Virus record (IMG/VR): IMGVR_UViG_3300039191_000134
Coordinates: 1 to 21,703 of that record
Strand: one strand, 5' to 3'
Length of the DNA stretch: 21,703 nucleotides
Origin: a virus
The notes below the pieces were generated by a model. It was not told where the DNA came from. It was given only the letters and a program-made list of their open reading frames with translations, and searched no databases. This document shows positions 7,277 to 21,354 of the stretch, piece after piece (the stretch's first letter is position 1; every line of letters begins with the position of its first letter). A program made the translations under genes and the position numbers.

Positions 7277-7298
7277 AATTTTGTCCCTTATCTGTCGG

Positions 7299-8359: not shown

Positions 8360-8448
8360 TGTGTCCCCTTGTCGTTGCCCGGGTGTCTCCCGGTGCTAAA
8401 AACAAAGTTAGGGCTTTTTGCGTGCTTAAGGCGCAAGTGTTGCAAGTC

Positions 8449-8467
8449 GTTACCAAATCGTTATAAA
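8449..8467 (-). promoter_or_regulatory. 19-bp element, copy 1
   Basis: GTTACCAAATCGTTATAAA on the plus strand, identical to the copy at 11034-11052 and 4 mismatches from the copy at 16208-16226. It consists of two GTTA-led halves 11 bp apart, about one helical turn. All three copies precede leftward gene clusters. A TTGCAA at 8440-8445 could be a -35, but I see no good -10 at the proper distance. The layout suggests a regulator binding site. Confidence 0.65.
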
Positions 8468-10053: not shown

Positions 10054-10403
10054 TTGTTATTCCTTTCTTGGCAATCGTTACAACGGTAAACACCGTCATC
10101 TTCGTGCATTTCTTCGTAGTGTCCTATGTAGTCGCAAGAGCCGCATTCCGCATCTTCGTCAGTCATCAGTGGATAGCCAAGTAGCTCACAGATACCCTCT
10201 CCGATTTCTGGCGCGTCCCATAGCTCAGAAGCGACTTGTACAAGTGCTTCGTAAGGTGTGTACATAATCATTCTGTTTTTGTAAACGGTTTTTACGGGTT
10301 TTTTGTTAGGTATTAAGTTCACGGTCAAAGTAAACCCGTCACTCGCGTGAAAATCAAAGTCAAAGTCATAAGGCTTGCCTTGTACCTCTATTATCTTGCT
10401 CAT
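10050..10403 (-). CDS. Zinc-ribbon protein (117 aa)
   Basis: The start is ATG 10403 (MSKIIEVQGKPYDFDFDFHA) with AAGGA 6-7 nt upstream; the longer frame to 10463 overlaps the Cys-rich microprotein and is rejected. The N-terminal half is beta-rich and acidic. The C-terminus carries CGSC and, 17 residues later, CNDC, a four-Cys zinc ribbon. The ATG shares bases with the upstream TAA. Function unknown; the ribbon may contact nucleic acid or protein. Confidence 0.8.
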   Translation of the reverse strand: MSKIIEVQGKPYDFDFDFHASDGFTLTVNLIPNKKPVKTVYKNRMIMYTPYEALVQVASELWDAPEIGEGICELLGYPLMTDEDAECGSCDYIGHYEEMHEDDGVYRCNDCQERNNK

Positions 10404-10700: not shown

Positions 10701-10703
10701 CAG

Positions 10704-10970
10704 TTAGCCCCTTGTCGTTTGGTTGTATTTTGCAAACATTGTTAGTTGTTCTTCCGTGTGTTGCTCATCTTCGTTGTTTATCCAACCACATTGTTCGCAC
10801 TCTATTTGTGTGCCATTTAGAACTGGTGCAGAGAATTCAAACGGCCCATCTTCGTCGTAACAAACCTCGCAACGGTATTGCAATGGTGAGCAAGCGGTGC
10901 AGTTATAAGCGCCGCAACCATAACTTGACGCTTTGGTTTCTATTTCTGCTATCTGTTCTGCTGTCAACAT
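10704..10970 (-). CDS. Double zinc-knuckle protein (88 aa)
   Basis: The start is ATG 10970 (MLTAEQIAEIETKASSYGCG) with AAAGGG about 5 nt upstream; a TTG at 11000 is in frame but less likely. After a helical N-terminus come many Cys: CGAYNCTAC, CEVC and later CEQCGW, enough for two zinc sites. The C-terminal helix is Gln- and Thr-rich. It is the first gene of the leftward operon that runs to 8672, directly behind the intergenic region with the second copy of the 19-bp element. Its position suggests early expression. Function unknown. Confidence 0.78.
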   Translation of the reverse strand: MLTAEQIAEIETKASSYGCGAYNCTACSPLQYRCEVCYDEDGPFEFSAPVLNGTQIECEQCGWINNEDEQHTEEQLTMFAKYNQTTRG

Positions 10971-11027: not shown

Positions 11028-11033
11028 GACACC

Positions 11034-11052
11034 GTTACCAAATCGTTATAAA
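11034..11052 (-). promoter_or_regulatory. 19-bp element, copy 2
   Basis: GTTACCAAATCGTTATAAA, identical over 19 bp to 8449-8467. It lies 6 bp upstream of a TTGACA box, an arrangement typical of an activator or repressor site at a promoter. Confidence 0.68.
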
Positions 11053-11102
11053 CGGGTCTTTTACTTTTTTTGGGGGGTATTTTGCCCCTACAGATTATTT
11101 CT

Positions 11103-11135
11103 GACTGAATTCCAGCTTTTTCTATCTGACTGAAT
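11103..11135 (-). repeat. Paired GAATTCAGTCAGA direct repeats
   Basis: Two copies of GACTGAATTC (11103-11112 and 11128-11137) lie 25 bp apart just downstream of the HNH gene. Each is preceded by TCT, so the shared unit is TCTGACTGAATTC. A related TTTCTGACCGAATTT occurs in the equivalent place in the intergenic region at 8637-8651. The spacing is about 2.4 helical turns. Confidence 0.6.
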
Positions 11136-11136
11136 T

Positions 11137-11451
11137 CTAGGTAAGTGGTTTGTCTCCACGCGAGGCGTTGCAAGACCTGTGAGCTGCTGCAAGTGCTGAA
11201 GCCGGATTACCGGGTTCTAAGTGGTCTGCTTGCCAAGGGTCAGTTAGGCGAGCGCCGTCACCACAGATGTGGCACTGAATTGCAGTAGCGCGAACGATAG
11301 CGGCCTGCTTGCGGTACTCAGAGTTGTAAAGGACTTTCTTTTTGCCTGCTCGCTTTATGTCGCGTAGCTGCTGTAAGCGGCGCTCATGGTCGTCACAGCG
11401 GCTCCCGTAGGATAACTGACCGCAGTCTAAGCAAGGTTTCTTAAATGCCAT
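11137..11451 (-). CDS. HNH endonuclease-like protein (104 aa)
   Basis: The C-terminal half has an HNH layout: CHICG (60-64), WQADHLEPG (74-81) with the metal-binding His77, and LAAAHRSCNASRGD (88-100) with His91, Cys94 and Asn95. An extra CLDC...CDDH zinc knuckle is at 7-22, and the linker is basic. HNH proteins nick or cut DNA and in phages serve in packaging, mobility or attack on other DNA; this one is far from terS. The ATG at 11451 has no strong ribosome site and is preceded by a 150-nt leader containing a terminator, so expression may be attenuated. A GACTGAAT lies 3 bp upstream of the start codon. Confidence 0.85.
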   Translation of the reverse strand: MAFKKPCLDCGQLSYGSRCDDHERRLQQLRDIKRAGKKKVLYNSEYRKQAAIVRATAIQCHICGDGARLTDPWQADHLEPGNPASALAAAHRSCNASRGDKPLT

Positions 11452-11476
11452 TATGACTGAATCCTAACAGGGTATG

Positions 11477-11519
11477 AGAAAAGGGGCCTAGAGGGACTGA
11501 TGAAAGTACGCTAGACCCC
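11477..11519 (-). terminator. Intrinsic terminator in the leader of the HNH gene
   Basis: A 9-bp stem with one G-U pair (11511-11519 with 11483-11491; in RNA GGGGUCUAG pairs with CUAGGCCCC) has a 19-nt loop and is followed by TTTTCTC on the minus strand. It sits between the promoter at 11606-11634 and the HNH start at 11451. Most transcripts should therefore stop before the gene unless the hairpin is prevented from forming. Confidence 0.75.
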
Positions 11520-11599
11520 TACTCAGGGAGACGGAACCGACAAAGGACAAACCAAGAAAGAAACACATACGACACACGAACCAAAAGGCTTTTCCGTCT
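11477..11599 (-). ncRNA. Candidate structured small RNA or attenuator leader (about 123 nt)
   Basis: The predicted start near 11599 follows a strong promoter, and the terminator above marks the end. The first eight bases AGACGGAA (11592-11599) are perfectly complementary to TTCCGTCT (11529-11536), which would close a long stem around a pyrimidine-rich loop. Next comes a small CCCT-GAGT-AGGG hairpin whose second arm overlaps the terminator stem, so the two structures are mutually exclusive. This is the layout of an attenuator or riboswitch, or of a stable phage small RNA. I do not recognise a known RNA family. Confidence 0.55.
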
Positions 11600-11605
11600 G
11601 CCTAT

Positions 11606-11634
11606 ATTATGGTCTGTGACTGAATGTTTGTCAA
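11606..11634 (-). promoter_or_regulatory. Strong sigma70-type promoter
   Basis: TTGACA (11629-11634) and CATAAT (11606-11611) on the minus strand, separated by exactly 17 bp. It is the best promoter match in the window. The expected start is near 11599. The spacer contains ATTCAGTC, one of the recurring octamers in its minus-strand form, which could be an operator. Confidence 0.8.
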
Positions 11635-11649
11635 GTTAGAACTGTAAGT

Positions 11650-11841
11650 TTATTTATTTGTTTCTGACTGCGGTTTGTCGTTGACATAGAACCCTGAGCC
11701 GTTGAACTTTAGCAAGCTGCTCTGAGGTCTACGGACCATGCCCCCCCTACAGTTGTCACAGGTTATTTTTGGGTCGTTGTGTATTGAGTGGGTGACTTTG
11801 TAAGACTGACCGCAACCGCACTCGTAGAGGTAGCTTGGCAC
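11650..11841 (-). CDS. FmdB-like zinc-ribbon protein (63 aa)
   Basis: Starting at GTG 11841 the product is MPSYLYECGCGQSYKVTHSI followed by CDNC and KFNGSGFYVNDKPQSETNK. The pattern Y-x-C-x-C at the start, CxxC about 16 residues later, and GSGFYVxD near the end is characteristic of FmdB family zinc ribbons, small proteins found across actinobacteria and their phages. The GTG overlaps the upstream stop (TAGTG). The open frame continues to 11913 but that part duplicates coding sequence of the neighbour in another frame. The coding strand has a run of seven G in the RGG segment. Likely regulatory or chaperone-like; the family has no firm function. Confidence 0.8.
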   Translation of the reverse strand: MPSYLYECGCGQSYKVTHSIHNDPKITCDNCRGGMVRRPQSSLLKFNGSGFYVNDKPQSETNK

Positions 11842-12044
11842 TATGCGTCGCCTAGCTCTTGCAGCTTTATAAAAGCCTGCCTTGCAGCGTAGTCGCGTGA
11901 GCCGCCTGCCCATCTGCCAGCATTGAAGTACATCTTTTTTTGTTCTTCGCTTGGCTGATAGACCATCTCATAGATAGTGTCAGGGGCTTCGCTGAGTAAA
12001 GCTTTTTCTCTCATTCCCTTTGCAAGCATCTCCCAGTCGGTCAT
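11841..12044 (-). CDS. Hypothetical protein (67 aa)
   Basis: A 67-residue helical protein: MTDWEMLAKGMREKALLSEA, then EMVYQPSEEQKKMYFNAGRW and a C-terminal helix. No family recognised. It begins with an ATGA overlap on the metallophosphoesterase stop and ends with a TAGTG overlap on the FmdB-like gene. All three are therefore translated from one message and may be functionally linked. Confidence 0.78.
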   Translation of the reverse strand: MTDWEMLAKGMREKALLSEAPDTIYEMVYQPSEEQKKMYFNAGRWAGGSRDYAARQAFIKLQELGDA

Positions 12045-16191: not shown

Positions 16192-16207
16192 GCTTATAAA
16201 GGCGTAT

Positions 16208-16226
16208 GTTACCGAACCGTTATAAA
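16208..16226 (-). promoter_or_regulatory. 19-bp element, copy 3
   Basis: GTTACCGAACCGTTATAAA differs from the other two copies only in the middle. It keeps both GTTA halves 11 bp apart and the ATAAA end. It overlaps the last codons and stop of the rusA gene, directly upstream of the nrdH-operon promoter. Confidence 0.62.
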
Positions 16227-21266: not shown

Positions 21267-21283
21267 GTTAATACCTTGCTTAG

Positions 21284-21354
21284 GGGTCGAACTAGGAATC
21301 GAACCTAGACTTCAACCCGTATTGGGGCTGTCTCTACCATTGGACTATGCGGCC
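21284..21354 (-). tRNA. tRNA-like sequence with abnormal anticodon arm
   Basis: A perfect T arm (CTAGG-TTCGATT-CCTAG), a D arm with AATGGTA, a TA junction and a 5-of-7 paired acceptor (GGCCGCA with TTCGACC) define a tRNA outline of 71 nt. The 3' end continues CTA rather than CCA. The anticodon arm can be drawn as AGCCC/GGGTT with a 6-nt loop CAATAC, or as CAGCC/GGTTG with an 8-nt loop CCAATACG. Neither has U33 or the standard 7 nt. The isotype therefore cannot be assigned. It may be a degenerate tRNA or one with an unusual loop. Confidence 0.5.

Follow-up and report, generated by a model that had tools for sequence, protein, structure and literature searches.

A promoter on the minus strand of a phage genome, here called P1, is predicted to give rise to an independent noncoding transcript, about 120-126 nt long, that is ended by an intrinsic terminator before a small HNH endonuclease gene, a conclusion that is well supported by the sequence and its conservation. 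The module to which this RNA belongs is very probably a real, conserved RNA gene of phages, apparently undescribed so far, and we give a probability of about 0.45 to the reading that a CU-rich stretch of the RNA regulates translation of the next operon by pairing with its ribosome-binding sites (RBS). The stretch analysed, referred to below as the window, is the IMG/VR phage record IMGVR_UViG_3300039191_000134 at its full length of 21,703 bases; nearly all of its genes, and all window features given below, lie on the minus strand, gene calls and start codons having been made by a simple script. The host is probably an aquatic actinobacterium, since the phage encodes WhiB-like proteins and its nearest isolate by HNH and terminase is Pontimonas phage phiPsal1 (terminase 60%, HNH 45% identity). 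A search against isolated phages found none with DNA similarity to the window, and phiPsal1 carries neither an intergenic RNA nor the ATTCRGTYA motif discussed below. A search of 12 related records, among them a 38.8-kb record with repeated ends, yielded no tyrosine integrase. That record (L264/L265, the 38,760-base contig of L166), which encodes a WhiB-like pair and likewise no tyrosine integrase, is probably a complete genome given the identical sequence at both ends.

P1 (11606-11634) consists of TTGACA (11634-11629), a 17-bp spacer and CATAAT (11611-11606). With 11 of 12 matches it is the sole site of this quality in the window, as the original prediction had it in naming P1 the best promoter there; 12% of whole-window dinucleotide shuffles hold one such site. 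TTGACA occupies the same position in 14 of 14 RNA-bearing relatives, and the -10 element of one of them, L003, reads CACAAT. P1 would be a strong sigma-70-type promoter with a noncoding RNA of its own, some 120-126 nt long to the 3' end depending on the choice of start site. Upstream of it lies the FmdB-like zinc-ribbon gene (11650-11913; TIGR02605 E 3e-5, PF09723 E 6e-5, both under the curated cut-off) and downstream the HNH gene (11137-11451; phrog_338 E 2e-5). From its predicted start the RNA covers about 126 nt (11474-11599; fold z -2.8 to -3.1) and would comprise a 5' hairpin, a CU-rich unpaired stretch and a terminator hairpin. The arms of the first hairpin, AGACGGAA (11592-11599) and TTCCGTCT (11529-11536), form the exact 8-bp pairing that had been claimed for the first eight bases of the transcript, and the relatives also have a 5' hairpin. 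The CU-rich stretch, TTTCTTTCTTGGTTTGTCCTTTGTCGG (11537-11563), has a mean unpaired probability of 0.76-0.80 versus 0.47 for the whole RNA and complements three ribosome-binding regions. The terminator (11476-11520), expected in the original prediction some 123 nt from the start and ahead of HNH, is indeed there, with a 10-bp stem, AGGGGTCTAG (11520-11511) and CTAGGCCCCT (11491-11482), containing one G-U pair, a 19-nt loop and a U-rich tail with TTTCTC after the stem; the loop exceeds the limit of a simple terminator scan, which missed it. The fold of the whole RNA of 126-127 nt is surpassed by hardly any shuffle (z = -3.06 and -2.76 in two runs), mainly owing to the terminator. Rfam, searched at gathering and E-value thresholds, held no relevant family, in keeping with the earlier statement that no matching family was known.

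The conservation of the module carries most weight. To find relatives, viral contigs were scanned with two proteins encoded nearby, the exonuclease and HNH, and the order FmdB-like gene, promoter, RNA, long terminator hairpin and HNH is shared by 14 further contigs, near-identical to the window in L002 and L003 and diverged in L009, L165-L170, L187, L189, L190, L191 and L193. Among HNH relatives, all those at about 70% identity or above have the module except L194 (69% HNH identity, RNA absent); in more distant relatives HNH mostly comes right after another gene, or after other RNAs. Measured from a fixed point past the promoter, the RNAs of the relatives are 114-126 nt long with fold z of -2.5 to -7.0. 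A covariance model built from four RNAs and run against 377 kb found L190 (E 7e-4), L170 and L168 (0.02-0.04) and L167 (0.14), all correctly placed. In an eight-sequence alignment 16 of 23 pairs had changed on both sides (34 cells; 0 of 500 shuffles) and slid structures scored far worse, although this alignment leans towards the model to which it was fitted. The check proposed with the original prediction, a covariance comparison with related phages, therefore does return compensatory changes, whereas the window RNA itself is matched weakly: 13.7 bits (11469-11596) in a 501-nt scan and no match at genome scale. Its assignment to the family is a prediction that draws chiefly on where the module lies and how it is arranged. 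Of 10 RNAs, 7 contain the six-mer CCTTTC (shuffle mean 0.9; 0 of 500), which is absent from that of the window. A search for further relatives to serve as a held-out set yielded none new, and a scan of genome contigs gave a single distant match. Exact-pattern scans for the CU motif elsewhere were discarded, the matches being chance, unrelated or members already known.

The original prediction mentioned neither the RBS match of the RNA loop nor a directional motif, ATTCRGTYA, that lies within the P1 spacer. The operator-like copy there, ATTCAGTCA (11617-11625), recurs 3 nt before the HNH start codon (11454-11462), where all RNA-bearing relatives have TAGKATTCRGTYNNNATG or a near-identical sequence, and twice past HNH, right after the stop (11127-11135) and at 11102-11110; similar motifs follow HNH in relatives. 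In the window the minus strand has 11 copies of ATTCRGTYA and the plus strand has none, the reversed pattern used as a control giving 0, and most of 12 related records show a similar strand bias. Exact ATTCRGTCA copies stand at gene borders, namely the four positions just given, 8640, and before the capsid gene (1386); copies in coding regions may be due to codon chance. The promoter spacer also holds the motif in L002, L003, L166, L167 and L033-L034, and a near-match in L165 and L035, at a varying distance from the -35 and -10 elements, but not in L009, L168, L187, L189, L190, L191 or L193. This variable placement favours an operator, which is what we predict the motif to be, over a fixed activator site, and a DNA-binding protein with ATTCRGTYA in the spacer and around HNH as its recognition site probably acts as the switch of P1. 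Tandem copies also occur: the contig of L035 has an array of at least eight, and L263 (contig positions 1393-1487) has, about 4 kb downstream of HNH, an array of eight or more ATTCGGTCA units at a spacing of 10-12 nt, one 20-nt gap containing a degenerate unit. In the more distant phages L204, L208, L213, L216, L232 and L256, arrays of ATTYGGTY past HNH are followed by a TATA-like sequence, with a repeat of about 28 nt in L208 and L213.

The position of the motif bears on a different account of the locus. At PR'-tR' of phage lambda a strong promoter gives rise to the 6S RNA, a short terminated transcript ahead of downstream phage genes, and the Q-binding element sits between the -35 and -10 elements. 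P1 could likewise be a constitutive late promoter whose transcript, functionless in itself, ends at the terminator and extends into HNH and beyond once a phage antiterminator allows read-through. The strong promoter, the short leader and the terminator all precede HNH as such a scheme would have it, the motif falls between -35 and -10, and HNH has neither a visible Shine-Dalgarno before its start codon nor an obvious promoter of its own. We nevertheless regard this account as unlikely: the motif is not fixed relative to the promoter elements and is missing from the seven spacers listed above, no Q-like protein was identified, many of the ORFs being small and without assigned function, and the conservation of the 5' hairpin and of the seed is left unaccounted for. 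Moreover, HNH is followed not directly by terminase genes but by a second candidate promoter, P2 (11015-11052), and several kb of small variable genes. P2 is composed of the repeat TTTATAACGATTTGGTAACG (repeat family D3) and TTGACA (11027), an order of elements kept in relatives, where TTTATAACG...TAACG and then TTGACA sit behind HNH and before another operon. The repeat occurs three times in the window (8448-8467, 11033-11052 and 16207-16226), and its middle copy may be an activator site, as it immediately precedes the TTGACA of P2.

Regulation of the operon behind P2 by the RNA is suggested by complementarity to its RBS. Ranked over the window genome, the three RBS with the best match are all found behind P2, before short ORFs of no assigned function: CGACAAGGGGCTAACTG (10701-10717) before ATG 10700 of a 68-aa ORF, GCCAAGAAAGGAATA (10058-10072) before ATG 10053 of a 115-aa ORF and GACAGATAAGGGACAAA (7280-7296) before ATG 7276 of a 238-aa ORF, scoring 29.0, 29.5 and 28.5 versus means of 17.8, 18.5 and 16.7 with the RNAs of other phages. 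The second pairs with TGTTTCTTTCTTGGT over 15 nt without gaps, G-U included. Of these, just the first site persists in L002 as well as in L003, identical up to -2; the second is not retained in L002, and at the third both phages diverge past ACCGACAGA. Exact complements between the unpaired stretch of the RNA and the RBS of the first P2 gene were found in L189 (CCTTTCTCTCT/AGAGAGAAAGG), L191 (TCCTTTCGTGT/ACACGAAAGGA) and L168 (TTTCTCTCTCT/AGAGAGAGAAA). This RBS tops the ranking of its contig in L168, L187, L189, L190 and L191, and RNAs match the first P2 gene of their own phage better than that of another (p = 0.0026; non-redundant p = 0.008). Across phages, computed probabilities leave most of the seed without a pairing partner.

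When the top three RBS within 5 kb behind P2 were compared with a null of dinucleotide-shuffled RNA, p was 0.004 for the window, 0.015 for L189, 0.005 for L191 and 0.022 for L193, and 1.2e-4 by Fisher's method over seven non-redundant phages, values that are exploratory because the matches had been spotted by eye before testing, and that come from related phages as non-independent samples. The in-minus-out contrast was weaker (non-redundant p = 0.0024; window alone 0.05). RBS of genes elsewhere (p = 0.41) and the control regions -75 to -51 (p = 0.96) and +15 to +39 (p = 0.46) were at chance; the control region -50 to -26 was significant like the RBS themselves (p = 0.008), and L009, L165, L166 and L167 gave no RBS-match signal. 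We note that a CU-rich RNA matches RBS easily, these being purine-rich, and that the shuffles control for composition but not for a letter order that resembles an anti-Shine-Dalgarno sequence. RNAduplex energies with free bulges between the RNA and the P2 RBS were dominated by gapped duplexes (permutation p = 0.17), and ungapped scoring was used instead. In the mechanism that we propose, several genes of the operon behind P2 would have their translation hindered by pairing of the CU-rich stretch with their purine-rich Shine-Dalgarno regions, repression being the direction suggested by known RNAs of similar type. A more far-reaching version, in which the RNAs form a new phage sRNA family of dedicated anti-Shine-Dalgarno regulators of one adjoining operon, with a directional-motif operator and with seed and RBS co-evolving into a private pair in each phage, is doubtful.

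Part of the same evidence could point to the host. Within the RNA, CUCCUUUCU is similar to the 3' terminus of the 16S rRNA of actinobacteria, so that host RBS would match the RNA too. An RNA that acts on host rather than phage genes, by matching host RBS or binding a host protein, would have a possible precedent in the abundant and toxic Pleft RNAs of mycobacteriophage L5 (PMC5712189). Against this, several phages match specifically their own P2 operon, and we consider action on the host quite unlikely.

An ordinary operon border, where the terminator of the upstream operon stands beside a promoter and the short transcript is meaningless, has in its favour that promoters and terminators commonly meet at such places and that the 5' part of the window RNA folds at chance: upstream of the terminator z is -0.23, so that the exact pairing of the first hairpin is by itself not above expectation. 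With P1 lying upstream of the terminator the promoter would be wasted, and the relatives conserve length, hairpins and double changes, which makes a mere border very unlikely. Least probable of these alternatives is an attenuator or riboswitch for HNH, in which a ligand, a protein or the ribosome toggles between terminator and antiterminator; the terminator does precede a same-strand gene and most RNAs have a CUCC-like stretch before GGAG, but in none of 11 RNAs does the upstream part pair with the 5' arm of the terminator better than dinucleotide shuffles do (p 0.25-0.85), the position of the CU tract relative to the stems differs between RNAs, and Rfam gave no riboswitch. The original prediction had left the choice between a small RNA and an attenuator, and it is the small RNA that is supported, by the conserved layout, length, hairpins and compensatory changes and the lack of an Rfam match. 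The CCCT/AGGG hairpin thought to compete with the terminator stem can form, yet is at chance against shuffles, and no leader peptide is conserved among the related RNAs, in line with its having been judged the less likely option. An RNA-based origin of replication (PMC7157519) was also considered and found no supporting evidence.

Other RNAs occupy the slot before HNH in related phages. One type, of 80-84 nt, is found in L307 (5822-5901), L252 (3822-3901) and L298 (5022-5102) as well as in L302, L312, L315, L316, L318, L319, L243 and L370. The RNAs of L307 and L252 match tmRNA (RF00023) above the gathering score, with 64 and 54 bits, and have the entire tag-coding part replaced by a stretch of 14-16 nt; the acceptor G3-U70 is retained and the T-arm shows compensatory changes. 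Mycobacterium phage DS6A is known, as cited in PMC11915505, for a tag-less tmRNA that acts as an inhibitor of the tmRNA of the host, and the L307/L252-type RNAs look like new tag-less members. Another, tRNA-like RNA with acceptor-like and T-arm-like sequence lies upstream of HNH in L033-L035 and in the gap before 5998 in L296; ARAGORN called no tRNA for it, and in L033-L035 it is preceded by a TTGACA promoter that has ATTCGGTCA or a sequence close to it. In the window, ARAGORN reports a tRNA-like gene with undefined anticodon at 21283-21354. Since related phages hold a tag-less tmRNA in the same place, the slot before HNH may be a general cassette for translation-acting RNAs.

To our knowledge, few phage-encoded base-pairing RNAs are understood, and a literature search brought up none from a phage of aquatic actinobacteria. 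If the RBS-pairing reading is true, one RNA would act through RBS to tune an entire block of accessory genes that change fast, and RNA and sites would change together, making the co-evolution of an sRNA with several target genes directly testable.

Among known systems, the stoperators of mycobacteriophages share with ATTCRGTYA its asymmetry, its orientation with transcription and its location at gene borders (11:0 strand bias). The Pleft RNAs of mycobacteriophages L5, D29 and StarStuff are abundant early noncoding RNAs made from a strong promoter in genomes with directional binding sites; they are about 500 nt long, are processed to 100-400 nt, and their mechanism is undescribed (PMC5712189). 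They are analogues in setting and not in sequence, and those phages or their parents have a repressor and an integrase, while the search of 12 records here gave no integrase of the tyrosine type. The C4 antisense RNA shares the strand of its target and is located upstream of it. In phages P1 and P7 it prevents translation of a phage gene, its hairpin loops pairing around the RBS (PMC12197685). The RNA described here is similarly a phage RNA with a loop complementary to the RBS of a downstream gene of its own phage, a likeness that is statistical (window p = 0.004, Fisher 1.2e-4). It differs in having its own promoter and terminator and several predicted targets, and in belonging to virulent-looking phages in which no antirepressor was seen; the Rfam C4 model gave no match at the gathering score nor, in the window region, at E <= 5. 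The 6C/B11 sRNA of mycobacteria is structured and pairs through C-rich loops with the RBS of several mRNAs (PMC10470900), and resembles the present RNA in being structured, in its actinobacterial setting and in being directed, by prediction for the latter, at several RBS. 6C/B11 is, unlike it, host-encoded and conserved; the present RNA has no Rfam 6C match, and its seeds are CU-rich (CU in the window, not runs of C) and vary from phage to phage. We read it as an RNA that would work like C4 or 6C/B11 while being a member of neither family.
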